NCBI GenBank assembly: GCA_029817715.1
Contig: JARUPY010000083.1
Location: forward strand, 4,154,001-4,218,000
DNA length: 64,000 bases
From: Melastoma dodecandrum
Lineage: Eukaryota; Streptophyta; Magnoliopsida; Myrtales; Melastomataceae
Reading direction: 5' to 3'
A program made the translations under genes and the position numbers. Below the pieces are notes generated by a model, which worked only from the letters and a program-made list of their open reading frames with translations, had not been told where the DNA came from and did no database searches. Below are positions 7,001 through 56,070 of this stretch, one piece after another. Numbering within the stretch: the stretch's first letter is position 1; each line of letters begins with the position of its first letter.

Positions 7001-7387
7001 CATCGAACTTTGGGGCAAAGTAAGAAAAATCGCAGGACAGAGTACCTCGTGCAATGGAAGGGAAAAGACCTGGCGGATGCTACGTGGGAGAAGGCAAACT
7101 CCTTGTGGCAGTTTGAGCGAGAGGTGCGGGCATACCTCGAGAAGGTGTCGACGAGGGCGTCGACTTCCTCTGGTGGGGAAGGTTTGTTAGCATGCTGTTA
7201 CGTATGCACAGTGAAGGTCGCGGCCGAGGACGGTGCAACTCGGTCGCAGCTCGTGAAGGGAGACACGAGCAAGTGGGCGAAGAGATGGCTTCCCCACAAC
7301 TCTGGACAAGGTGGCAAGAAAGTCTTCCTGGCCGCAGAGGATGATCAGGATAGCCTGACGCGGCAGAAGATAAGCTGGCCCTGCTGA
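4088..7387 (+). pseudogene. Pol (RT, RNase H, integrase, chromodomain) of gypsy element 1, with in-frame stops
   Basis: The frame continues that of gag. Visible in order are the reverse transcriptase with catalytic YLDD (near 4873), RNase H with HTDASD near 5311, an integrase zinc finger (H-H-C-C around 5870-6000), an integrase core with MDFISGF, SDRDARF and GQTERVN carrying the D, D and E residues, and a C-terminal chromodomain near 6985-7130 (YLVQWKGK, ATWE). TAG stops at 4472-4474 and 5384-5386 cut it into three open pieces. The last piece reads about 200 nt into the 3' LTR before stopping. There is no frameshift over 4.7 kb, which argues for recent decay by point mutation. Confidence 0.9.
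7172..7182 (+). other. Polypurine tract of gypsy element 1
   Basis: A purine-rich ggtggggaagg lies just before the 3' LTR, the place where plus-strand priming occurs in LTR retrotransposons. Confidence 0.65.
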
Positions 7388-7954
7388 CGCTAGAGGATAA
7401 GCTGACGCAACAGGATAAGCTGACCCGGCTGACGCATGGAAGATAAGCTGAGGCCCAGGGATATGCTGACGCGATGGGATAAGCTGACGCTGCAGGGGAT
7501 GGGCAACCCCTGGCTTCGTCTGGGCATTTGTAATATTTGTATTCTTGCACCCACGACCCCCTCTATATATGTAAGGCTTGTAAAGGGGGCTGTGAACATA
7601 GAGATTGTATTGGCTTTCTTTGTTAGTGAAAAGAAACATCGGTGACCTTCACCGGAAAACTGAGTGTCTCCCCCTTCGTCCCCCTCTGTGACCCTGGTCC
7701 TTTGAGTAGGTCCTTGGGCGTGTTCGGCAAACGACCTCCGGGTGTGAGCGTGAGCGATACACGAGCGGAGCGTGAGCGATACACGAGCGAAGCGTGAGCG
7801 ATACACGGAGCGACACTTGGGAACGTGGGCGATACCTGGGAAGGGAACGAGTGGGAGATTCTGGGATTCTGTCTGCGCGTTGCTGGTCGTGCCGTGAGCG
7901 GATACGACACTAGCAGGTTCGAAAAATTATCGGTGTAATTGTAGACCTGTGACA
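7185..7954 (+). repeat. 3' LTR of gypsy element 1
   Basis: This 770-bp copy of the LTR begins TGTTAGCATG and ends CTGTGACA. It is followed by the 5-bp target duplication acttc at 7955-7959. A TATA-like tatatatg lies near 7564. Confidence 0.93.
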
Positions 7955-10531: not shown

Positions 10532-10905
10532 TCACTTTTCCCGTGGAGCATTTGAAGAAGCGATGGGCTGAGAGTATATACCGACAGCAACATCAACAAC
10601 ATGAGAAACATTTGTCAGACCAATAAAAATGTCCAATCCTCCGTCCACTGAAAACAAGCGCTTGCATGAGTGTGGACCCCCACCCTGTTTCAATTCCCAT
10701 ATCGAGAACACCCTCCAAGCCCCGTCATTCTACCCCACCATCGCTTATGGGATGTTTTTGCAGGAAGCTTGCATATTGAGTATGTCTAACCTCCAGAATA
10801 AATAGGTTTCTTGATTGTAATACAGTGAACTCAAAAACAATCACACAAAGCTTTCCATTGGTAAAGGTTCTACCCAAGTAATGATAATCTCCCATCTATT
10901 AGCTT
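10532..10905 (-). pseudogene. F-box protein C-terminal region, diverged paralogue fragment
   Basis: Reading leftwards, the translation begins YHYLGRTFTNGKLCVIVF, parallel to EHHCLGRTFPDGKLCVIAF in the F-box pseudogene at 21073-21585. After a frameshift near 10730 it reads VFSIWELKQ and KRLFSVDGG, parallel to FWIWEMKQ and ERLFSVDGG in the tandem array. It ends in SSNAPREK and a stop at 10532-10534. This is the only copy here with what looks like a natural C-terminus, so it shows how the array fragment would once have continued. The N-terminal F-box is missing. Confidence 0.6.
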
Positions 10906-10993: not shown

Positions 10994-11185
10994 AGCCAAG
11001 AATTAAGTCAAATGATATGGTCGTAACATGGTATCAGAGCGTACATCAGTTCAAACGAGCCAATAATTAAGTCAAATAATAATATTTCAAGATGGTATTA
11101 GGGTGGACATGCGTTCACACGAGTCAAGAATTAAGTCAAATATTAATGTTTCAATATGGTATCAGAGCTGACATGAGACAATCTC
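10994..11185 (+). repeat. Three 64-bp tandem repeats
   Basis: Copies start at 10994, 11058 and 11122. Each has the form agycaagaattaagtcaaat, then about 20 variable bases, then a version of tggtatcagagc. The third copy runs into the large tandem array, and its latter half forms the start of every array unit. Confidence 0.75.
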
Positions 11186-14100
11186 ACTATTACTGCAGAA
11201 GTAGAAGAACGTGCCCATATGTTCCATCCCCCCGTCCACCGAAAACAATCGCTCATATGATCCGCTCTGTTTCATTTCCCATATCCAGAACGCTCCCTCA
11301 AGCATCCATCCTTCCACAATTCCATCAATGCTTACCCCGCTACACTTGAAGGGATTCGTTGATGCAAGGAATCGGCTCAGAAACGCTGCAGCGAGGTTGA
11401 ACTTTCATTAACAAATCCAAGAACACCATTTATAGTCATAGCTCTACCGGCGACCGAAATTCAAGTATTAATGTTTCAATATGGTATCAGAGCCGACATG
11501 AGACAATCTCACTGTTACTGTGGAAGTAGTAGAACTTGCCCATATGTTCCATCCCCCCGTCCACCGAAAACAATCGCTCCCATGATCCGCTCTGTTTCAT
11601 TTCCCATATCCAAAACGCTCCCTCAAGCACCTCTCCTTCCATAATTCTATCATTGCTTACCCCGCTACACTTGAAGGGATCCGTTGATGCAAGATATCGG
11701 TTCAAAAACGCTGTAGCGAGGTTGAACTTCCATTAACAAATCCAACAACACCAATTATAGTCATAATTCTATCGGCGATCGAAACTCAAGTATTAATGTT
11801 TCAATATGGTATCAGAGCCGAAATGAGACAATCTCACTGTTACTGCAGAAGTAGCAGAACTTGCCCATATGTTCCATCCCCCGTCCACCGAAAACAATCG
11901 CTCCAATGATCCGCTCTGTTTCATTTCTCATATCCTGAACGCTCCATCAAGCATCCCTCCTTCCATAATTCCATTAATGCTTACCCCGCTATACTTGAAG
12001 GGATCCGTTGATGCAAGGAATCGGCTCAGAAACGCTGCAGCGAGGTTGAACTTCCATTAACAAATCCAACAACACCAAGTATAGTCATAGCTCTACCGGC
12101 GACCGAAACTCAAGCATTAATGTTTCAATATGATATCAGAGCCGACATGAGACAATCTCACTGTTACTGTGGAAGTAGCAGATCTTGCCCATATGTTCCA
12201 TCCCCCCGTCCACCGAAAACAATCGCTCCCATGATCCGGTCTGTTTCATTTCCCATATCCACAACGCTCCCTCAAGCACCACTCTTTCCACAATTCCATC
12301 ATTGCTTATGCCGCTACACTTGAAGGGATCCGTTGATGCAAGGAATCGGCTCAAAAATGTTGTAGCGAGGTTGAACTTCCATTAACAAATCCAACAACAC
12401 CAATTATAGTCATAACTCTATCGGCGACCGAAACTCAAGTATTAATGTTTCAATATGGTATCAGAGCCGAAATGAGACAATCTCACTGTTACTGCAGAAG
12501 TAGTAGAACTTGCCCATATGTTCCATCCCCCGTCCACCGAAAACAATCGCTCCCATGATTCGCTCTGTTTCATTTCTCATATCATGAACGCTCCCTCAAG
12601 CATCCCTCCTTCCATAATTCCATTAATGCTTACCCCGCTATACTTGAAGGGATCCGTTGATGCAAGGAATCGGCTTAGAAACGCTGCAGCGAGGTTGAAC
12701 TTCTATTAATAAATCCAACAACACCAATTATAGTCATAACTCTACCGGCGACCGAAACTCAAGTATTAATGTTTCAATATGGTATCAGAGCCGACATGAG
12801 ACAATCTCACTGTTACTGTGGAAGTAGTAGAACTTGCCCGTATGTTCCATCCCCCCGTCCACCGAAAACAATCCCTCCCATGATCCGCTCTGTTTCATTT
12901 CCCATATCCAAAACGCTCCCTCAAGCACCTCTCTTTCCATAATTCTATCATTGCTTACCCCGCTACACTTGAAGGGATCCGTTGATGCAAGGAATCGGTT
13001 CAAAAACGCTGTAGCGAGGTTGAACTTCCATTAACAAATCCAACAACACCAATTATAGTCATAATTCTATCGGGGATCGAAACTCAAGTATTAATGTTTC
13101 AATATGGTATCAGAGCCGACATGAGACAATCTCATTGTTACTGCTGAAGTAGTAGAACTTGCCCATATATTCCATCCCCCCGTCCACCGAAAACAATCGC
13201 TCCTAAGGTCCGCTCTGTTTCATTTTCCATATCCAGAACGCTCCATCAAGCACCTCTCCTTCCACAATTCCATCATTGCTTACCCCGCTACACTTAAAGG
13301 GATCCGTTGATGCAAGGAATCGGCTCAGAAACGCTGCAGTGAGGTTGAACTTCCATTAACAAATCCAACAACACCAATTATAGTCATAGCTCTACCGGCG
13401 AACGAAACTCAAGTATTAATGTTTCAATATGGTATCAGAGCCGACATGAGACAATCTCACTGTTACTGTGAAAGTAGCAGATCTTGCCCATATGTTCCAT
13501 CCCCCCGTCCACCGAAAACAATCGCTCCCATGATCCGGTCTGTTTCATTTCCCATATCCACAACGCTCCCTCAAGCACCTCTCCTTCCACAATTCCATCA
13601 TTGCTTATGCCGCTACACTTGAAGGGATCCGTTGATGCAAGGAATCGGCTCAGAAATGTTGTAGCGAGGTTGAACTTCCATTAACAAATCCAACAACACC
13701 AATTATAGTCATAACTCTATCGGCGACCGAAACTCAAGTATTAATGTTTCAATATGGTATCAGAGCCGAAATGAGACAATCTCACTGTTACTGCAGAAGT
13801 AGTAGAACTTGCCCATATGTTCCATCCCCCGTCCACCGAAAACAATCGCTCCCATGATTCGCTCTGTTTCATTTCTCATATCATGAACGCTCCCTCAAGC
13901 ATCCCTCCTTCCATAATTCCATTAATGCTTACCCCGCTATACTTGAAGGGATCCGTTGATGCAAGGAATCGGCTTAGAAACGCTGCAGCGAGGTTGAACT
14001 TTCATTAACAAATCCAACAACACCAATTATAGTCATAGCTCTACCGGCGACCGGAACTCAAGTATTAATGTTTCAATATGGTATCAGAGCCGACATGAGA

Positions 14101-15255
14101 CAATCTCACTGTTACTGCGGAAGTAGTAGAACTTGCCCATATGTTCCATCCCCCCGTCCACCGAAAACAATCGCTCCCATGATCCGCTATGTTTCATTTC
14201 CCATATCCAGAACGCTCCCTCAAGCACCTCTCCTTCCACAATTCCATCATTGCTTACCCCGCTACACTTGAAGGGATCCGTTGATGCAAGGAATCGGCTC
14301 AGAAACGCTGCAGCGAGGTTGAACTTCCATTAACAAATCCAACAACACCAATTATAGTCATAATTCTATCGGGGATCGAAACTCAAGTATTAATGTTTCA
14401 ATATGGTATCAGAGCCGACATGAGACAATCTCATTGTTACTGCTGAAGTAGTAGAACTTGCCCATATATTCCATCCCCCCGTCCACCGAAAACAATCGCT
14501 CCCATGATCCGCTATGTTTCATTTCCCATATCCAGAACGCTCCCTCAAGCACCTCTCCTTTCGCAATTCCATCATTGCTTACCCCACTACACTTGAAGGG
14601 ATCCGTTGATGCAAGGAATAGGCTCAGAAACGCTGCAGCGAGGTTGAACTTTCATTAACAAATCCAACAACACCAATTATAGTCATAGCTCTACCGGCGA
14701 CCGAAACTCAAGTATAAATGTTTCAATATGGTATCAGAGCCGACATGAGACAATCTCACTGTTACTGTGAAAGTAGCAGATCTTGCCCATATGTTCCATC
14801 CCCCCGTCCACCGAAAACAATCGCTCCCATGATCCGGTCTGTTTCATTTCCCATATCCACAACGCTCCCTCAAGCACCTCTCCTTCCACAATTCCATCAT
14901 TGCTTATGCCGCTACACTTGAAGGGATCCGTTGATGCAAGGAATCGGCTCAGAAATGCTGTAGCGAGGTTGAACTTTCATTAACAAATCCAGCAACACCA
15001 ATTATAGTCATAGCTCTACCGGCGACCGAAACTCAAGTATAAATGTTTCAATATGGTATCAGAGCCGATATGAGACAATCTCACTGTTACTACGGAAGTA
15101 GTAGAACTTGCCCATATGTTCCATCCCCCGTCCACCGAAAACAATCGCTCCAATGATCCGCTCTGTTTCATTTCTCATATCCTGAACGCTCCCTCAAGCA
15201 TCCCTCCTTCCATAATTCCATTAATGCTTACCCCGTTCTACTTGAAGGGATCCGT
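11141..15255. repeat. Tandem array of 324-325-bp LTR/F-box hybrid units (12 full, 1 partial)
   Basis: Units start (tattaatgtttcaa or variant) at 11141, 11466, 11791, 12115, 12440, 12764, 13089, 13414, 13739, 14063, 14388, 14713 and 15038. Each has about 218 bp containing tggtatcagagc and a minus-strand F-box-protein coding piece (WIWEMKQ, RLFSVDGG, ending DPFKCSG). Then come about 107 bp identical in kind to the tip of the neighbouring gypsy LTR (tgatgcaaggaatcgg through gaccgaaactcaag). The 13th unit runs into the complete LTR at 15256. Variants recur every four units. ORFs of 60-70 codons in the array are repeat shadows. Confidence 0.92.
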
Positions 15256-15821
15256 TGATGCAAGGAATCGGCTCAGAAACGCTGCAGCGAGGTTGAACTT
15301 CCATTAACAAATCCAACAACACCAATTATAGTCATAGCTCTACCGGCGACCAAAACTGGAATACAATCATCGCCCCTGAGACAGAGACCACACCACCCCA
15401 CCTCCCTTACGTACCCAACCCCACACTCTCCTTCTCACCTCTGACCGTTTCCCCGAATTTCTATCGTTTCTCTTATTCTTTTTCTTCAGTGTCGCCCCCT
15501 CTTCTTATTCCTTCCTGCTGTCAGAGCCTTCTGTTGGGGGAACGAGAATACCGTTGCCATCTTTCTTCTCTCCCTATTTTAGTCCAAACATTTCTTCTTG
15601 CTCCACATTTTCATCCTCCCTATCTTCTCCTCCCAATTCGAACCCGAGCCCAGTTGCCTGGCTCTTCAGCCCATCCATCTTCAGCGGCCCTGACCATAAA
15701 TCTAACATTAAGTTCAGAGAACGATCATTCATTCCTTCGACAGCTTCCATCCTCACTTCATCTTCACCAGCAACAGTTATTCCTTCCATGTTTGTCTCCA
15801 CTCTTGCCTCTTCCTGCATCA
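15256..15821 (-). repeat. 3' LTR of gypsy element 2
   Basis: This 566-bp copy matches 20509-21072 along its whole length, with scattered differences and small indels. Its left 107 bp are the part repeated in the adjacent tandem array. At about 15345-15358 it reads gaccaaaactgga where the other LTR and the array read gaccgaaactcaag. Confidence 0.9.
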
Positions 15822-18800
15822 ATGCCCGCCGCTCAAAATCACCCTTGTCCTCAAGGGTGATATGAGGAAAACGCTGCAGCAAATCATATAAGTATTCCCA
15901 TGTTGCTGCCCTTTTTGGCTGGTGAGACCACTTAACCAAAACTTGGGTGGCTGCTCTGGATCCTCTTTTGACCAATTTTCGTTGTAGGATATACTGAGGA
16001 ACCGAAGGAACATCAGAAGAGACGTGTAAAGTAGTAGTGATTCCTGTGTCTCCAGGAGAAGCCTTCTTCAACCGAGAAACGTGAAATGTTGGATGGATTT
16101 GAGAATGAGCAGGAAGATCAAGTCGATAGGCTAACTGACCAATCTTATCAAGGATCTTATAGGGTCAATGATACAGAGGAGATAACTTGCTGTACTGGCT
16201 ACCTTCCACTGACCCTTGTCGATAGGGTTGTAATTTGACTAATACATAATCTTCAATATTGAATTGCTTATCTGATCTTCTCATATTGGCCAACTGAGCC
16301 ATCCTATTTTGAGCTCGATGAATGTGGAACCGTAACAACTTAATCTTCTCTTCCTTATCTGAGAGTTCTTGGTCCACAAGTCTGTTAGCATTTGTCCCAT
16401 TAATGAAAGGCAAATGGATCGGAGGCTCATAACCATATAATGCAGCGAACGGGGACATGTGAATTGTAGAATGGTAAGTGGTGTTGCACCACCACTCCGC
16501 CAATGGAAGCCATTTGCACCAGAACTTTGGACAGTCCATACACATGCACCGCAAATAAGTCTCCAACACCCTATTTACCACTTCACTTTGGCCATCCATT
16601 TGTGGGTGATACGCTGTAGATAAGTGTAGATCAACTCATTGTAGCCTGAACAAAGTTTGCCAGAAATCACTGAGGAATATAGCATCTCCATCACTCACCA
16701 TAGTGCTTGGAAGACCATGTAACTTGAAGATAGAGTTAAGAAACTGTTCTGCCACTATAGCTGCTGTATAAGGATGTTTGAGAGCTATAAAATGGGCATA
16801 TTTAGTGAGACGATCAACCACAACCATGATTACCTCTTTCCCCCCAGATTTAGGCAACCCCGAGGTAAAATCCATGCTCACATTAACCCATACTGCAGTA
16901 GGAATAGGAAGCGGCTGAAGAAGTCCCGGGAAGGCAGCCTGATCATACTTGCATTTTTGGCACACATCACAACCCTTTATGAATTGCTTCACATCCTTCT
17001 CTAAACCCTTCGAATAGCAAAAACTTGCAATTCGCTTAACTGTGGCATTCACACCCGAATGACCTCCAACAGTAGAGGCATGGAATGTCTTGATAATTTG
17101 TATTCTCAATTCCTGATTATTTCCCACTACCAACTTTCCCCTCTTAAGCAACAACCCCTGTTTGATTTCAAAAGAAGAAACTTCACCTTTCTGCAGACTT
17201 TGCAAGGTGTTTTGACCATGGGGACCTGCTGTCAGCTTGTCTTGATGGCATCCAGAAGCGTCCCTTGCTGCATTTCTAACACCACTGTCATAACTTCAGA
17301 ACTTGGTATCCTTGAGAGAGCATCAGCTACAACATTGTCCTTGCCCTTCTCGTAGTTGATTTCATAGTCAAAACCCAGCAACTTGGTCAGCCATCTAAAG
17401 TGCATTTCGTTGTGCAATTTCTGTTCCAAAAGGTACTTTAAACTCTTGGGATCCGTATTGATGATAAAGTGCCTGCCCATGAGGTAGTGTCACCACTTAT
17501 CCACAGCATACACAATGGAGAGCAATTCTTTTTCATAAACAGAGTAATGCAGATGCTTAGAGGCCAGTGCTTTACTGATGAAGGCTATTGGATGTCCTTT
17601 CTGCATTAGTATAGCGCCAATACCCTGCTGACTTGTATCTGTTTCTACCACTAATTCTTGGCTGAAATCTGGTAAAGCTAATGTGGGTGAGGTAATCATG
17701 GCCTCTTTTAATTGCTCAAAAGCCAACTGTGCCTCCTGAGACCACCTGAAAGCATCTTTCTTCAAAAGTTGTGTTAATGGTTTACTCAAGATACCATACC
17801 CTCTGACGAACCTCTTATAATAGCCAGTCAATCCAAGAAATCCCCTCAGTTGCTTGATATTGACTGGTGCAGGCCAATTCTGAATGGCAGCCAGCTTCTT
17901 TGGATTCGTGGTTACACCCCCTGCTTCAATGAAATGACCTAGGTATTCGACTCTCTTCTTAGCGAACGAACATTTACTCAATTTCGCATAAAGATGATTC
18001 TTCTCCAGTAACTCCATCACAAGGACAAATGCTGCACATGATTGTGGAGAGTGGAACTGTAAACCAGAATGTCATCAAAGAAAACTAGAACAAACCTTCT
18101 CAAGTAAGGTGTAAAAACTTCATTCATAAGACTTTGAAAAGTGGATGGTGTATTAGTGAGACCAAATGGCATCACCAAGAACTCGTAATGCCCTTCATGA
18201 GTCTTGAAGGCTGTTTTAGGTATGTCATCCTCCTACACTCGTATCTGGTGATATCCTGATCGTATCTGGTGATATCCTGATCTGAGATCCAACTTAGAAA
18301 ACCAAATGACACCATGTAATTCATCCAACAACTCTTCTATCACCGGAATGGGAAACTTATCCTTGATTGTTCGCTTATTGAGCTCTCTATAATCCGTGCA
18401 GAGGCGCCAAATACTGTCTTTTTTCTTTATCAGCACAACCGGCGAAGCAAATGGACTTGTATTGTGCCTTATCACACCGGTCTGTAGCATTTCGTGCACT
18501 AATTTTTCTATAACATCCTTTTGTGTACTAGAGTATCTATACGGTCTAAGGTTCAGTCCCTACACCCCTGGCTCTAATGGGATATTGTGGTCCTGAGTTC
18601 TTCTGGGAGGTAACTCCTTTGGTTCCTCAAATATTTGATGAAACCTATTGAACTCGTCTTGAATTTCAGATGGTAAGTCCTGTTCCTGGTCACTCTCCCT
18701 CTCCTGTACTTGTTTTGGAATTAGTAGCAGACCCATGTCATCACTTTGCAAGGAGAACACTCCCGTAGTCACTCTCTCAAATTCTCCTTCACCCACCTCG

Positions 18801-19213
18801 AGCTTAACTTCCTTCCCGTTCAACAGATATTTCATATTTAAGTTGGGAAAATCCCACACAACAGTACCCAACGAATTTAACCATTCAATGCCTAAAATCA
18901 ACTCAGAACCCCTAATTGGCATTAACAACACTTCAGTACTATACTTCTGACCCTGCATAGTCCATACAAAAGATCTGACTATTGTCGAACATTGCAACTT
19001 CTCCCAATTTGCCACCATGACTCCTCTCCCTGTAATCGGCTCATATTCACATCCCATTTGTTTTTCCACCTTCAAATCCAAGAAGTTATGGGTGCTACCC
19101 GAGTCAATTAAGACTGTCAACCTCCTTCTCTTATAATAACCATCCACCTTCATAGTATGATTCTTTAAAGATAGTGCCACCCCATGTAAGGCATGCAATG
19201 ACATTATCGGCAT
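15822..19213 (-). pseudogene. Pol of gypsy element 2 (protease to integrase), broken
   Basis: Minus strand. Protease: DSGSTHNFLD near 19100. Reverse transcriptase: [11 protein letters not shown] near 18265, and a catalytic FFDD in place of the more usual YLDD near 18090. RNase H: VVETDTSQQGIGA near 17640 and a segment with DNVVADALSR near 17320. Integrase: zinc finger around 16970-17090, core MDFTSGLP near 16870, SDGDAIF near 16690, and DGQSEVVNR after a stop near 16600. A chromodomain-like tail with LVKWSHQP and ATWEYL lies near 15905. Stops or shifts occur near 18560, 18233, 18020, 17480, 17210 and 16630. A 21-bp duplication inside the RT (18240-18281) repeats SGYHQIR. Confidence 0.88.
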
Positions 19214-20516
19214 ATCTCCTTCCCCCAGTTTCTCTCTGTGGTTGTTCTTCTATGTCGAAAGGACTATTAGTAAGTGCATAAGCTGCTGGTACACCCGATT
19301 CCTTCACAATTTCCTCTTCCCGACCATACTTGTCAATTAGTTGCATATCTTCCTCATCCTCCAGCATAATAGCATACAATTTCTTGTGACTGCACTCGTG
19401 GTTGAATGTATATTTCTCGTCGCACCAAAAACATAGTCCCTTCATCTGCTTTTCCTCCATCACCGCAGGGGATAATCTTTTGTGCGGTGGTTGGCAAGGT
19501 GATGGCCTTGAATTGCCAGAAACAACTAGTTTTCCCCCTCCTTCTGTCAACATTCTGCCCATCAACCATCTAGGGACAGTTCCGTTAATTGGAATTGACC
19601 CCATTCCATGTTGACCTGTCCACTGTCCATCTCTACTAATTTTTTGCACAAACTCCCTGTTCTTACCTTGGTAACTTTCGTCCTCATTCGCCAAATTCTT
19701 CCCATAAGCGATAGCCTGATGCAAGGTTCTGGGGTTGAACATCGTAATAAGTTTTCTGTTTTCCCTCTTCATGCCGCCTACAAACAGGGTAACCCGATCT
19801 TCCTGTGACAAATCATACTTCGTCACCACAGATACAAATTCCTCAACATACTCAGAATAATTTTTTCCTTCCCTCAATTCTCTCAACGCCACTATTGGTC
19901 TCGTAAGTTCATTTGGTCCAAAACGAAGCAACATGGTAATGGAACACTCTTGCCAACTTACTGGTCTTGTGAGTTCCCTATTCCGCAGAAACACATAATG
20001 CCAATCAATCGCCGGACCCGACAGATGAATCGAAGCAATACTAACTTTTAAGTCGGCCGGAGTCTCATCAAGGTCAAAAAAACGCTCACACTTAAAAATC
20101 CATTCCTGGACTTGTGTTCCATCAAAGTGAGGAAAGTCCACCTTGGTCTGTCGAGTCACCCTTTCTTCTCTTTTATCTCCCGCATTCTATTCTAGCACTC
20201 TATCATGTCGAGAGGATTCCCTTCGCCCCAAACCCAAAACACGTTTAGGCGGTTCTTCCTTCCTGCCTTCAGAATACAAACCTCCTCCCTTCGATGACTC
20301 TCGATGTCTGCTACGACCCCTTCCTTCTATGGCGTCCATCTGCCCCCTCATCTCCACAAACTGAGACCCTAAGCCATCAACTTTCTTCAGAAGCTCCTGT
20401 AACACCTCCTTAACCGATTCCACCTCCATACTCGCCGATCTTGACCTCGTATTGTTAGCAACAGACATTACTCGTGGAATCCGAGCCTCGCGAGCTCTGA
20501 TACCAAGTTGATGCAA
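19131..20516 (-). pseudogene. Gag of gypsy element 2, broken
   Basis: Minus strand. The N-terminal part (20516-20187) has a heptad-like region (VKEVLQELLKKVDGLGSQF) and a basic stretch, then a TAG at 20187-20189. The same frame resumes at once with KVDFPHFDGTQVQEWIFKCE, a typical retrotransposon gag start, and runs through a zinc-knuckle-like CFWCDEKYTFNHEC near 19430. The frame shifts near 19220 before the protease. Confidence 0.85.
20494..20505 (-). other. Primer-binding site of gypsy element 2
   Basis: On the minus strand the sequence reads TGGTATCAGAGC, the exact plant initiator-tRNA-Met primer site, 3 nt after the end of the 5' LTR. Confidence 0.85.
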
Positions 20517-21072
20517 GGAACCGGCTTAGAAACGCTTCATCGAGATTGTACTAGCATTAACAAATCCAATAACACCAATTACAGTCATAGCTCTACCGGC
20601 GACCGAAACTCAAGGAATACTATCACCGCCCCCGAGACAGAGACCACACCACCCCACCTCCCTTACGTACACAACCTCACACTCTCCTTCTCACCTCTAA
20701 CCGTTTCCCCGAATTTCCATCGTTTCTCTTATTCTCTTTCTTCAGTGTCGCCCCCTCTTCTTATTCCTTCGTGCTGTCAAAGCCTTCTGTTGGAGGAACG
20801 AGAATACCGTTGCCATCTTTCTTCTCTCCCTCTTTTAGTCCAAACATTTCTTCTTGCTCCACATTTTCGTCCTCCCTATCTTCTCCTCCCAATTCGAACC
20901 CGAGCCCAGTTGCCTTGCTTTCAGCCCATCCATCTTCAACGGCCCTGACCATAAATCTAACATTAAGCTCAGAGAGCGCTCTTTCCTCCCTTCGATAGCT
21001 TCCATCCCCACTTCATTTTCACCAGCAACAGCTATTCCTTCCATGTCTCCACTCTTGCCTCTTCCTGCATCA
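20509..21072 (-). repeat. 5' LTR of gypsy element 2
   Basis: This 564-bp LTR is bounded by tgatgca on the plus-strand left and tgcatca on the right. Its right end abuts the F-box coding sequence in mid-codon. Confidence 0.9.
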
Positions 21073-21585
21073 TCCTTCTGCACTATACGAAGGGAATCCT
21101 TGTAAGGCTGCAACCTAAAATCATAACAAGGATCTCGAGGAAGTTTGGCCTCCAGAAGATCCACGGGCTTCTCGACTGTACTCTTCATACACCCCCGATG
21201 GAAGTCGAAGGCAATCACACAGAGCTTCCCATCAGGAAACGTTCTGCCCAAACAATGATGCTCTCCCGCCACAACACTTCGTTGTTGATTCCGTAGATAA
21301 CCAGGTCAACCCCCACGTCAACCTCTTTCCATGTCTTCAGCCCCTGATCATACAGCCGCCCCCTGCCTTTGTTATCTCGAAATAGCAGTAACACCTTCTT
21401 TCGCCAGAATAAATATGTCGCACCTTTCTTACCATCGAGCATCGGAGATGCTCTCGAACGAAGTGGGCGGATACAATGATTGCGTGCCAACGATGTGAAA
21501 CGAGGGTCAACGGAATGACAGATTCCAGTGGCAACCGGCAAAGGATTGAATGAATCGCATGATCGTTGAGTGCACAATCAAACAT
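21073..21585 (-). pseudogene. F-box protein gene (N-terminal part), disrupted by gypsy element 2
   Basis: The minus-strand frame starts at an ATG at 21585. It encodes an F-box near the N-terminus (ILCRLPLESVIPLTLVSHRW), the SKP1-binding motif of SCF ubiquitin ligases. It continues, with frameshifts near 21430 and 21260, through LLLFRDNKGRGRLYDQGLK and HHCLGRTFPDGKLCVIAF to RIVQKD, where the gypsy LTR begins. The rest of the exon survives on the other side of the element in the tandem array (DPFKCSG, WIWEMKQ, RLFSVDGG). Two frameshifts plus the insertion make this a pseudogene. I do not assign a subfamily for the C-terminal region. Confidence 0.8.
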
Positions 21586-22260
21586 CTTGCTGGTATCTTG
21601 GTGGGGGGTATCTTGGGTCTTGGGGATTTGGGGAGACTAGACGAAGAAGGTGACGGTTTTTTCCGACAAGTAAAATCTGTTTTATATTTCTAATCGAGTG
21701 TTATGGAATCCATCGAGATCATTCGGTTTTATTTATTTGAATCATATCCAATAGATGAGTATTATACGGTATTAGCTTTAGCTAAGAAAAAGTTTGCCTA
21801 AAATTTGGAATTCGGTAGATTACGGTTCTTAAATAGCTAATTGAATTACCGATTTGACTTTACGAAAGAAGTCGCCATAGCGCTGACGTTCCGCCCAGCC
21901 ACTTCATTTCATAGGGACCAATTCACATAAAATCACTACTCGAACTACTGATTTTCTTTCACTGCTTCAACTAGCCATTTTGCACTGTGAAGGTTGGACA
22001 ATTATTTTTGTATTTTTTTTCCTTAAGTGATTCGCTACTTACTACCACCAAGGAACTCACTATTTTAAGTAGCGATTTCCTTCGGCAAGGTTGGACAATC
22101 ACTTGTATATTTTTTTTAAGTATTAGAAGTTGCTAGTTCAAGGAAGTCGCTACTTGAACTAGCGACATTTTGTAGACAGGGCATGTTACATAAGCGAAAG
22201 AAGTCGATACTTGAAGTAACGATTTCTTTCGTTGCGAGTAGCGACTTTTCATAGATGGCT

Positions 22261-28390: not shown

Positions 28391-29930
28391 TATCATTACA
28401 TAATGTCCATTAAACTATATTTAGTTGCTGTAAGGAATAACTTCCGCATAGCTTTACAAGCAGCAATTACTAATCGCTTCTTGCAAACAACATTTTTATA
28501 GCGAGAATTGATGTTGATGGCGATACGAAAAATACTAAATATATGATGTGCAAATGGTGGTGTTCATCCTACATCAACATCATCAACGACGGTCGTAATT
28601 CCAGAGTGTCAATTCGAAATCAAACAAATTTCACCGGTACGATCAACCACAATGTAACCCTTAAGGCATTTCAATAACCAACTCCATGAGGCGTAGCTCT
28701 TTTCATCGACAACTGCAAATGCTAATGGCACAGTATGATTCGAACCATCCATACTACAGGCTATTAAAAGCTTCTGCTTGTAATTGCTATAAAGGAACGT
28801 CCCATCAATACTAACAATCGGACGACAATGCTTAAAAGCCATAATGCTCGGTCCAAATGCCTAATACCTTTTAAAAGTGAACTGAGGATCTCTTAAAATG
28901 TACGAAGCACCCCAATCAACTATAGTGTCGTCATTTGAAGCTCTAATAACATTCAATAGGTGAGGTAGTTCATTGTATGACTCAACCAAATCACCATATT
29001 CCATTGTTATCACTCTCCGTTTTACATCCCATACGTGTCTTCTTAGTACATCATAACCAAATTTCTCTTTAATAACATTCCGCATGAAAGACACTTTCAC
29101 TTCAGGAAATTCTCTAACAAAACCCAAAAAATAAGGAGCCATGAAGTTTGAATCCAACTGCATATGATCATGACTAAGCACTGCATTTAGACAAGTGTGA
29201 GGGGCTAACAATTGTAACCTCAAATTCATCGTCACAAGCCCTTCGAGTTACTCTCAGCCTCCACATGCACACCTCATCGTATCAACACGAAAAATACTCC
29301 ATACTCCATTGTTATCACTTTCCTCTTTACATCCCATACGCGTCTTCTTGGTACATCGTAACCAAATTTCTCTTTAATAACATTCCACACGAAGGACACT
29401 TTCACTTCAGGAGATTATCTAACAAAACCCTAAAATAAGGAGCCATGAAGTTTGAATCCAACTGCATATGATCATGACTAAGCACTGCATTTAGACAAGT
29501 GTGAGGGACCAACAATTGTAACCTCAAATTCATCGTCACAAGCCCTATGAATTGCTCTCAGCCTCCACAAGCACACCTCACCATATTAAACACAAAAAAC
29601 ACACCATAATTTCTTTTCAGATTCAAGTATTTCACAGGTATAGTGATCTTTAATATGGACTAGTTAACTACATGTCGAAGATCACTTTTATCCTTGAGCC
29701 GCATCCTTTTGCGAAAGTCATTCATATCCTCCGAAACCCGCAACATTAGATCATTCTCATACTCATCAAACATTATCTTTTCATCGTTTATATTCTCAAT
29801 GTAGAATGATAGTGGCTTCTCTACTCTATAACTAGACCCTTCTCCTACATCTTCTTCATCATCTTGTACGTCAAATTCAACGTTCACATCAAATGGTTCT
29901 TCATGAGCATCTACATTATTAAACATTTCA
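28391..29930 (-). pseudogene. MULE transposase, N-terminal and catalytic core
   Basis: Minus strand. An acidic N-terminal region (29926-29660) is followed by a MuDR-type block with CLNAVLSHDHMQLDS and FGYDVLRRHVWDVKRR (28861-29235). The DDE-type transposase core follows with PIVSIDGTFLYSNYKQKLLI and PLAFAVVDEKSYASWSWLL (28609-28842), the first catalytic Asp being in SIDGTF. A continuing piece, KKRLVIAACKAMRKLF, ends at 28390. A stop near 28609 and frameshifts break it. The region 28983-29593 is duplicated in tandem. Expected family length is about 600-800 residues; this is a dead copy. Confidence 0.8.
28983..29593. repeat. 305-bp tandem duplication within the MULE transposase gene
   Basis: Sequence from about 28983 to 29287 is repeated at about 29288-29593. 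For example atacgtgtcttctt at 29031 matches atacgcgtcttctt at 29336, and both copies contain ccaactgcatatgatcatga. Identity looks above 90%, so the duplication is newer than much of the element's decay. Confidence 0.85.
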
Positions 29931-34011: not shown

Positions 34012-34069
<58 letters not shown>

Positions 34070-36172
34070 GGGGGGGGGGGGGGGGGCGCTAAAGTCAAAC
34101 ACATAACACAATAGGATGGAAAAGGGTTGACCACTAGGATTTTCAGGCACGTTGTAAAGGTAAAAAAAAAGGCACTTGATACCCTGCTTCTGGGTCATAT
34201 TCTAGCCACAAGCGTTATCAGAAGTTCCTCACAAGACACACTACCTTCGCCTTAACAGATTAAGCATCTCCAGATTGGATGGCTTTTATTAGATCAAACG
34301 GCTTACTCATCTGGATCCTTCCGAAATTTCATACTTAATCTAGAAAGGAAAATCCAGCACACCTTAAGATGCTCTTTCACCGTCCCATCAAAGAGTAGTC
34401 TAATCACTTAAGACCGCATGAAACAGGCATACCTCACATATGTACCCCAGATCCACAAGAGAATTCTTGGGAAGGTGCTCCGCACAAATTAAGCACATGG
34501 CCCGCATAGAACCAGGATGGATGCAGACCCCTTCCTCAGAAGTATCTGCACTCCAGTAGTATGATAACGCATCAACTAGAGCCACAATACAACAGTAGCC
34601 TGGTTCCTACAATATCAGGGAGGGTGGCATTCTAGTCTACAATGCCAAAATAATCCAACGGATCTTTAGTCGTCTAGAATACCAGTTTCAAATAAAAAGA
34701 AAAGGCTTTAAATCAGATCACATGGCCAGTTAGTCATTTCCCAGAGCGAATCATCACATTCCAGAAAACTCAAACACACAAAGACAATGGCAAAATGAGG
34801 TTTCAATTGTATATCCAAGGTCATAGTTTCCGATCAATAAATCCTAACGTGACTTCTGTAAAATATTTTGCCACAGGAAGCATGTATGTGTCCCCCCACG
34901 ATAAGCTGTTTATGTGGAAGTGCAACAATAGTTGTCGACTCACCCTCGTGAATTTATGGCACTTTCTTCATGAGGGAGCGGGATATATGCAGCTATATAG
35001 CATAAACTATGATCTTCCACATAACAGGATGTGCACATTTACCACCATATAACCTATTTCCGTGTAGGGAAAAGGCTTAGCACTCCTACCAGTGAGATTG
35101 TTATCAATCTAACTTCAATAAAAGTATTGGAACTCAAAAGGGGACCTTAAGTAATGCAAGAAGGCATTAGCTACATCTGAAAATATTCACTTCAATAACA
35201 ACAGATGATCATAAAAAATTTATCCCCGCCAAGAAATGATCAACATTGTGGAAGAATAAACCATACACTCTCATAACAGATACCACCTAATGTAAAAAGT
35301 GCTTGGGTGTCATTGTATATTCTCATACCCGAGTTATGTTCCGGATCTTCAAAAGTAGAGAATGATTTCAAAGATCGTGATTTTTTGAGCCCGTCTACCT
35401 TGCATCTCTTCAGCCTGAAATTATTTAAGAAAACATATATGAAGTACGACACTTTTCAGATGATAGTTGTCAGGTTCAAATAGTACACTTAAAACGGCTT
35501 CCAAGTCTTTACTGATGTCATTAACCATTCAAGGAAGTTTGATGTAGACATCTGCCCAGAAGAAGCACAAATAGGCATGGAGATGAGGAATCCTGCTTAC
35601 ACTGTAAATGACTAGGTAAAACCAATATCCAAGTGCAAACTAATGACAGAGGACACTCAGTACAACGTCAGAGACAACATCCCAATGGTGGAACACATTT
35701 AAGAATGAAGTGGATTCCCCAATATAAGAAAGATAGTCATATGAACAAGTCTCATTCTTTCCCCTCTCATTTCCTGTTTCCAAACCATCCAAGTCTCATA
35801 ATCGTTTAACCAGCGCATCAAACAGTGGAACTCTAGGCTGATGGACAGAGAATCATGCATATGATCACTGAACCAGAAGCTCATACACCATTCCAATAGT
35901 CATCTCAATGGTGGCTCCATAATTGTAACACTATGAAGAATAAGCTACACTCGGAATATGCAAGACGGCAAGGAAAAGAAAGAGAAATCAATGAACTCTT
36001 AAGAGAAATGCTTGTATGCACCATAGTGTCATTGTTACCTTTTTGGGTCACTGCCATCTGATTCTGCCTTGGGAGAAAAATCACATGAACCAGATTCTAT
36101 TATCCATTCAAGATACATCGCAAAGTGATCGCTGCCACATGACGGATTGAGTGATGACTCCAAATGTTTCAT
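31332..36172 (-). CDS. CPL4: RNA polymerase II CTD phosphatase-like 4 (FCP1-homology plus BRCT), 8 coding exons
   Basis: Predicted Ser-phosphatase of the Pol II CTD, acting in the nucleus. Exons (high to low): 36172-36039, 35414-35329, 34545-34433, 33842-33662, 33385-33095, 32395-32210, 32027-31989, 31589-31332; all have GT-AG borders and consistent phases. Order: acidic N-terminus, a Cys/His segment (CIHPGSMRAMCLIC), the FCP1 homology domain with DLDRT (D142, D144) and TKLRPFVWSFL, a LILDDT motif, and a C-terminal BRCT domain (SVTHVV, VHPRWIEA). About 428 residues, close to plant CPL4. Oddities: one extra base in exon 5 near 33197 shifts the frame before NMISREDGT, and a TAA at 31334-31332 cuts the extreme C-terminus a few residues early. 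The ATG directly follows a good acceptor (gtgcag), so an intron in the 5' leader is likely, with a first exon near 37.2-37.5 kb. Confidence 0.87.
32625..32955 (-). mobile_element. tRNA-derived SINE in a CPL4 intron
   Basis: It is flanked by an 18-bp direct repeat, caagattaacaaaaactt, at 32607-32624 and 32956-32973. On the minus strand the element starts near 32955, has an A-box-like tggcgtaaggtgg and a perfect B box GGTTCGAACC (32889-32898), the internal promoter of RNA polymerase III. It ends in a poly-A tail (plus-strand T run at 32624-32632). The body is GC-rich in contrast to the intron. This is the architecture of a plant SINE. Confidence 0.8.
34015..34086 (+). repeat. Long G homopolymer (54 G, one T, 17 G)
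   Basis: The plus strand has G at 34015-34068, T at 34069 and G at 34070-34086, within the CPL4 intron between exons 3 and 4. On the transcribed (minus) strand this is a C tract in the pre-mRNA. Its exact length may be an assembly estimate. Confidence 0.85.
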
Positions 36173-46168: not shown

Positions 46169-46177
46169 GTAATTACA

Positions 46178-46977
46178 GGAAGCGGCTAATGGTACGTGCA
46201 CGTAACGGTTACGTGCTTTACTAATTATTACTAAATTTTTTTAGTAAATTTTACTAAAAGTTGACCGTTACTAACTAAGTCAACGCAATTTTAGTAAAAA
46301 ATATAGAAAAATTTACTAAAATCTCGTCTTCTTTTAGTAAAGTCAACACATAATTAGTAAAAAAGTATGTTAAATTTACTACTTTTTTACTGTTCAAACA
46401 AGTTAAATTTTACTAATTTTTCGCTGACTTTACTAAAACTTTTCCATTAGTAAAATCAACTCAGATTTAGTAAAAAAAGTAGTAAAATTTACTAATATTT
46501 TTACTAACAATACGTTAACTTTACTAAAAGTTGTTAGTTTTTTAGTAAAGTCAACGTATTGTTAGTAAAAATATTAGTAAATTTTACTACTTTTTTTACT
46601 AAATATGAGTTGACTTTTACTAACGGAAAAGTTTTAGTAAGGTCAGTGCAAATTTACTAAAAAAGGTAGTAAAATTTACTACCTTTTACTGTGCGAAAGA
46701 AGCCGATAAATAGTAATTGTTTACTAATTCTGGTGTCCTTTTTAGTAAAAAACTCTTCCAGTTCGTAAAACTGTTAGTAAAGTCCTACTTTTTTAGTAAA
46801 TGTTTACTAATTTTGACATGTTTTTACTAAAAATATTAGTAAACTGTTACTAAAAAATGAACGTGTTTACTAATGAATTTACTAATTAGAACAGTGTTTC
46901 CGAACCTAACTCTGAACCTATTTTGGATGTGAAATTACCGGTTTACCCTGGTTACTAAACTTATTACTAATTTTACG
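46178..46977 (+). repeat. Left terminal inverted repeat of long-TIR MULE (800 bp)
   Basis: Pairs with 55170-55969 in inverted orientation along its full length. It is packed with ttagtaaa/tttactaa words on both strands, several dozen in 800 bp. The inner edge is the shared gttactaaacttattactaa. Confidence 0.93.
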
Positions 46978-55169: not shown

Positions 55170-55969
55170 CGTAAATTAGTAATAAGTTTAGTAACCAGGG
55201 TAACCCGGTAATTTCACATCCAAAATAGGTTCGGAGTTAGGTTCGAAAACACTGTTCTAATTAGTAAATTCGTTAGTAAACACGTTCATTTTTTAGTAAC
55301 AGTTTACTAATATTTTTAGTAAAAACATATCAAAATTAGTAAACATTTACTAAAAACGTAGGACTTTACTAACAGTTTTACTAATTGGAAGACTTTTTTA
55401 CTAAAAAAGACACCATAATTTGTAAACAATTACTAATTTTCGGCTTCTTTCGCACATTAAAAAGTAGTAAATTTTACTACTTTTTTTAATAAATTTGCGC
55501 TGACCTTACTAAAACTTTTCCGTTAGTAAAAGTCAACTCAAATTTAGTAAAAAAAATAGTAAAATTTACTAATATTTTTACTATCTGTACGTTGACTTTA
55601 CTAAAAAACTAACAACTTTTAGTAAAGTCAACGTACAATTAGTAAAAAAGCTAGTAAATTTTACTACTTTTTTTACTAATTCTGAGTTGATTTTACTAAC
55701 GGAAAAGTTTTAGTAAAGTCAGCGAAAAATTAGTAAAATTTAACTTGTTTGATCAGTAAAAAAGTATTAAATTTTACATACTTTTTTACTAAATCTGTGT
55801 TGACTTTACTAAAAGAATACCGGATTTTATTTAAATTTTACTACATTTTTTACTAAAATCGCGTTGACTTAGTTAGTAACGGTCAACTTTTAGTAAAATT
55901 TACTAAAAAAATTTAGTAGTAATTAGTAAAGCACGTAATCGTTACGTGCACGTACCGTTAGCCGCTTCC
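55170..55969 (-). repeat. Right terminal inverted repeat of long-TIR MULE (800 bp)
   Basis: This is the inverted partner of 46178-46977. It ends ttagccgcttcc and is followed immediately by the target duplication gtaattaca. Confidence 0.93.
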
Positions 55970-56070
55970 GTAATTACACGATAGGTTAATTCTACTCAGA
56001 GTTTTGTTTAGAAAAATTCGTACGATAAGATTTTGGAACGAACAAATGGAGGTCAATTATATTACTGGTG

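Follow-up and report, generated by a model that had tools for sequence, protein, structure and literature searches.

The retrotransposon and its surroundings

The window, which is the whole stretch of 64 kb from Melastoma dodecandrum that was analysed, harbours a Ty3/gypsy element on the minus strand, with a left LTR of 566 bp (15256–15821, minus strand) that is the 3' LTR of the element and a right LTR of 564 bp (20509–21072, minus strand) that is its 5' LTR. Over 561 aligned bases the two LTRs show 36 mismatches, with three indels in addition (K2P 0.067). The internal part (15822–20508, minus strand) is spread over several ORFs, and when six ORF pieces were searched with Pfam profiles five gave matches in the order gag, protease, RNase H, integrase and chromodomain, which is that of a Ty3/gypsy chromovirus; the class rests on this domain order, the RT core lying outside the set of pieces. 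The matches above the cut-off were gag, RVP_2, RT_RNaseH, Integrase_H2C2, SH3_Tf2-1 and Chromo, and rve fell below its cut-off. Adjoining the right LTR is a primer-binding-site-like sequence of 12 bases, TGGTATCAGAGC (20494–20505, minus strand), which we take to be a match to the initiator-Met tRNA.

Several other features are found in the same window. Direct repeats at 1835–2633 and 7185–7954, 94.6% alike, surround long gag-pol-like ORFs on the plus strand and probably represent a second gypsy element, the LTRs of which contain short tandem repeats. An inverted pair of ~800 bp (46169–46973 and 55173–55977, 93.8% alike) contains internal 95-bp repeats and encloses ORFs that, judged by eye, are presumably Mutator-type transposase-like, while another local duplication, a tandem one of 304 bp with two copies 91% alike, is situated at 28992–29608. 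The ORF at ~42.4–43.0 kb encodes plastid ribosomal protein S17, with which a Melastoma candidum protein aligns at 94% over 100% of the query and with 319 bits; among the best 120 of 455 proteins the next match by E-value has 167 bits (68% over 81%). Rfam at gathering thresholds gave no matches in the entire window.

The interrupted gene and its target site

The 5' part of the host gene (21073–21636, minus strand) has a broken frame, and an N-terminal F-box domain (PF00646) was identified in the ORF at 21337–21636 on the minus strand (E 8e-06, 26 bits against a cut-off of 20.5). Five other pieces were searched as well, of which four had no Pfam match and one resembled an unrelated family below the threshold. 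The gene is disrupted by frame changes, and when its F-box protein was used as query in a protein search, 267 candidates were obtained, none of them at E ≤ 0.001.

On both sides of the element a 5-bp target-site duplication can be seen, the left copy reading TCCGT on the plus strand (15251–15255) and the right copy TCCTT (21073–21077, plus strand), thus differing at one of five positions. The two host flanks were rejoined into an empty site with drops of 0, 3, 4, 5 and 6 bp when the left target copy was kept and of 4, 5 and 6 bp when the right one was kept, and only the 5-bp drop puts the gene piece into the upstream reading register, a result that concerns register only and that a 2-bp drop would also give. 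The gene piece directly at the element, which belongs to unit 13 of the array described below, contains two stop codons in the upstream frame; in some other units, for example at 14084–14329, the same frame is open across the gene piece.

A degenerate paralogue of the host gene that lacks the 5.8-kb element is located at 10532–10895 (minus strand) and matches both flanks in order, with 136 and 104 aligned bases at 66% and 69% identity at the DNA level. The insertion point is located in the gap that separates the two matching stretches, a gap of 100 bp in the joined host and of 43 bp in the paralogue. The second LTR, the target duplication with its one mismatch and the gene register at the rejoined site all agree, and the LTR boundary is real.

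Layout and higher-order structure of the array

Next to the left LTR lies a tandem array of 13 head-to-tail units of 324–325 bp (~11137–15358, plus strand, with edges that are uncertain by a few bases). Tandem Repeats Finder reported it at 11136–15357 with a period of 325, 13.0 copies and 92% matches; for alignment the units were cut at 11143–15362, the repeated sequence proper stopping at ~15358. The string at the host/LTR junction, when searched for in the whole window with up to 3 mismatches, occurs 13 times on the plus strand and not at all on the minus strand, always within the array, and the 12 spacings between these junctions are 325 bp in eight cases and 324 bp in four. With unit 13 as query, BLAST against the window recovered all 12 remaining units, the right LTR tip and, weakly, the paralogue. 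The array is a single 4.2-kb locus of 13 units within the 64 kb, whereas a satellite DNA family usually has many copies or long arrays, mostly at more than one locus, and the satellite birth of the original prediction is accordingly a candidate one. The original prediction had given a unit of 324–325 bp with the junction repeated 13 times and a last copy running into a complete LTR, and on these points the repeat finder, the junction counts and the continuation of unit 13 into the full left LTR bear it out; the span that it gave, 11141–15821, is right for the array up to ~15358, the remainder up to 15821 being LTR sequence that occurs there once.

Unit 1 (11143–11466, plus strand) is continuous with a minisatellite on its left, and units 2–13 (11467–15362, plus strand) form three higher-order 4-mers (u2–5, u6–9 and u10–13) that are 95–97% identical (97.1, 96.4 and 95.2% in the three comparisons). 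Identity between pairs of units averages 93.2% (range 89.8–98.5%, 78 pairs), corresponding to a mean divergence of 6.8% and a maximum of 10.2%, and 78 of the 325 alignment columns are variable, with 37 of these varying in just a single unit. Units one to eight places apart (lags 1–8) have mean identities of 92.3, 93.8, 92.2, 96.3, 91.95, 93.7, 91.8 and 94.9%, and in 20000 shuffles of the unit order the lag-4 value was never reached at lag 4, and four shuffles attained it when all lags between 1 and 7 were allowed. The array thus has a higher-order structure, a trait of the satellite type, with a period of four units. By unit type it reads A-B-C-B in units 2–5 and A-D-C-B in both units 6–9 and units 10–13, and the tree groups u2, u6 and u10 (support 64), u4, u8 and u12 (99), u7 and u11 (87) and u3, u5, u9 and u13 (97), with u1 standing apart. 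Unit 10, judged by eye, is partly mosaic across the variable sites. The period points to later unequal exchange, which would have proceeded in steps of four units.

An assembly in which one or a few genuine units had been strung together over and over could also show a tandem array, and a suspicious run of 72 G (34015–34086, 97% matches), possibly a sequencing or assembly artefact itself, is present in the same window. The many variable columns, nearly half of them private to single units, and the orderly four-unit period speak against such an error, which we regard as very unlikely, although the exact copy number may still be off.

Composition of the unit and its joints

Each unit draws on three sources, ~37 bp of minisatellite, ~182 bp from the 3' end of the F-box-type gene and ~106 bp of LTR tip. 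In unit 13 these are the minisatellite-derived part at 15039–15074 (plus strand), the 3' end of the broken gene at 15075–15255 (minus strand) and, at 15256–15358 (minus strand), the LTR tip that is repeated in the array and that forms the outer end of the left LTR. A unit of two parts had been proposed, ~218 bp with an F-box coding fragment and ~107 bp of LTR end. The LTR part agrees well with this, and the first part has about the proposed length but is itself a fusion of minisatellite and gene, the minisatellite having been overlooked as a third source. The F-box domain itself is not in the unit: the gene part is a 3' end without Pfam match, and the domain lies across the element.

No Pfam match was obtained for the gene piece of the array, and no sign of coding constraint was seen in it, the variable sites being spread over the codon positions as 16/14/13 (no formal test) and the silent changes amounting to 8 of 48 against 21% expected. 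A protein search with one hybrid ORF on the plus strand of the array returned no candidate in annotated genomes, a weak result as such ORFs would rarely be annotated.

On its left side the unit derives from a 64-bp minisatellite with ~2.9 copies (10994–11177, plus strand), the last copy of which continues into unit 1. The array is accordingly bordered by minisatellite on the left and by the full LTR on the right, so that both single-copy parents adjoin it. A new joint between LTR and minisatellite occurs 12 times on the plus strand and never on the minus strand (up to 2 mismatches, whole window), all within the array, and all 12 joints have one and the same breakpoint, reading TCAAG, with scattered substitutions around it. 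Parental edges with one recurring joint between them are what is expected from the tandem duplication of a single segment.

At the breakpoint TCAA is common to the LTR (about position 101–105) and the minisatellite, while the following G agrees with the LTR, the minisatellite having A there. Sharing of at least 4 bp was found at random LTR/minisatellite joints in 1.3% of 100000 draws, and the 4-bp microhomology is by itself slight evidence. The left LTR lacks 3 bp, CAA, exactly at the breakpoint of the array (15357–15358), bases that are present in the right LTR and in all 12 internal joints; this gap is one of the three indels in the LTR pair and may be there by chance, a repair scar being an attractive but unproven possibility.

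A uniform joint and two parental edges would equally be expected if a small extrachromosomal circle had been amplified by rolling-circle replication and had then recombined homologously back into its original site, and the four-unit blocks could then be circle multimers. This route requires more steps, and neighbouring units differ by 4–9% (lag-1 identity 91.0–96.0%), so that a single burst from one circle leaves the monomers unexplained; we consider it unlikely.

The part of the minisatellite at 11030–11177 bears the 12-mer TGGTATCAGAGC on the plus strand, identical to the primer-site-like sequence that the element has on the minus strand. Since the left LTR is the 3' LTR in the sense of the element, it could be imagined that the repeats arose while a read-through RNA with U5, the gene end and the minisatellite was being reverse-transcribed. 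The array, however, is not part of the element but occupies the host side of the LTR boundary, a position that a cDNA product would not take, and the orientation of the 12-mer is wrong for priming on a sense transcript, which leaves this origin hardly credible.

Divergence of the array and of the LTRs

The original prediction called the amplification datable, and the LTR pair does provide a distance. At a plant substitution rate of 1.3e-8 per site per year the LTR pair would be ~2.6 million years old. The array follows this less well, as its LTR tips differ more from the right LTR (10–19 of 100 bases) than the remainder of the LTR does (25 of 454). When the first 100 bases of each tip were compared with this remainder, 8 of the 13 units gave values under 0.05 (4.5e-5 to 0.026) and five gave 0.069 to 0.11, p-values that are uncorrected and come from units that are not independent. 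A faster change of the left LTR's own tip was not significant (11 of 107 against 25 of 454, Fisher p 0.08). With tips diverged beyond the LTR remainder the array seems to be off the clock of the LTR, and it is datable only loosely.

Nine differences from the right LTR within the first 100 bases are common to all 13 unit tips, in keeping with a descent of the units from the left LTR, the direction of the changes not being set; at tip position 19 units 5 and 9 carry the base of the right LTR and not that of the left one. Divergence among the units (mean 6.8%) is on a par with that between the LTRs (6.4%), and a simple clock therefore does not clearly put the amplification after the insertion. 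Such a deep divergence would also suit an older, dispersed satellite of 325 bp, which may have copies elsewhere in the genome and one copy of which had picked up the LTR tip or had been hit by the chromovirus. Every unit, however, contains the outer end of this very LTR as far as the boundary of integration, the right LTR goes on beyond its tip as LTR and not as unit, and the left edge of the array is minisatellite, which together make an older satellite highly improbable.

Changes of C>T or G>A account for 45 of the 83 minor alleles in the array, at 7 of 30 CG, 13 of 27 CHG and 25 of 96 CHH sites, their direction being set by the majority base only. They are in keeping with the array being methylated, silent DNA.

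Origin of the array and comparison with known tandem repeats

Amplification of the element's own insertion junction, the central claim of the original prediction, is well supported by the LTR pair, the target duplication, the reading register, the colinear paralogue and both edges of the array. We consider it probable that a chromovirus insertion was followed by tandem duplication of the junction segment and by expansion to 13 units, with four-unit steps. The Ty3/gypsy chromovirus would have inserted into the F-box-type gene in the same orientation, both being on the minus strand, creating the 5-bp target duplication. Later a segment of 325 bp, extending over the minisatellite, the 3' end of the gene and the LTR tip, would have duplicated in tandem, perhaps by break repair or by slippage at the TCAA common to LTR and minisatellite, and misaligned exchange or slippage between units may then have raised the number of copies to 13, afterwards in steps of four. 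The insertion and the present structure are read directly from the locus; the break-repair step, the unequal exchange and the order of the events are what we infer from them.

Tandem repeats derived from retrotransposons are already well known, and this locus is a clean variant and not a new kind. In the available parts of the accounts cited here, the maize repeats CRM1TR and CRM4TR have units made of part of a retrotransposon LTR and adjoining sequence, CRM1TR being present at two loci and locally homogenised (PMC3648361). The Melastoma unit likewise consists of part of an LTR plus neighbouring sequence, but where the maize units combine the parent LTR with UTR, here the LTR tip is combined with flanking host DNA, so that the unit crosses the boundary of integration. 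In Lathyrus sativus satellites derive from the 3'UTR of Ogre elements, and short retrotransposon-linked arrays are described as satellite seeds (PMC7004042). Those arrays are situated inside the elements, whereas the Melastoma array is at the outer edge of its element, with which, as we infer, it would not travel.

For the rye repeats pSc200 and pSc250 LTR ends are found directly at tandem arrays, as in Melastoma, and the title of the report speaks of a co-amplification of arrays and adjacent elements (PMC4857426). In rye, according to that report, it is old satellites that border on LTR ends, at many sites, while here the LTR end is within the unit and the array occurs at one element. Sobo of Solanum bulbocastanum, which comes from the LTR of Sore1 and is presented in a table with further cases (PMC9659126), resembles the Melastoma array in being an LTR-derived tandem repeat; the LTR is the sole source that the table names for it, and the Melastoma unit has gene and minisatellite sequence in addition. 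In the maize, Lathyrus, rye and Sobo cases, as far as these accounts describe them, the units come from within an element or LTR ends adjoin an array, whereas here the boundary is crossed and both parents are still in place. An array spanning a host/LTR junction was not named in the titles and opening parts of abstracts in the literature searched, a weak absence as subscription papers are mostly uncovered by it.

Models for the beginning of tandem repeats include duplication that results at transposable elements from recombination or from the repair of breaks (PMC9659126) and amplification between short repeated sequences (PMC8831618). Both are compatible with a first duplication by short direct repeats or break repair and an expansion by unequal exchange, as proposed here, but they are general, and their accounts, in the parts available, contain no unit that spans a junction between host and LTR. 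One review is sceptical that satellites with larger units could begin through slippage or unequal exchange at short repeats, but cites maize as a case for which this had been proposed (PMC6947457), and the Melastoma locus therefore bears on an open point.

A further-reaching reading, that a nascent satellite family is seen at its birthplace, with its parents, its first breakpoint and its first higher-order step still readable, and that the array outpaces the LTR with amplification itself speeding divergence, is offered tentatively and appears doubtful to us. The beginnings of satellites are usually hidden, because old arrays have neither edges nor source left. In this array the parents flank the repeats, and models for the first duplication and for the expansion can be tested by a comparison of relatives; the locus also illustrates that the insertion of a retrotransposon can be the starting point of a tandem repeat into which sequence of a host gene is incorporated.
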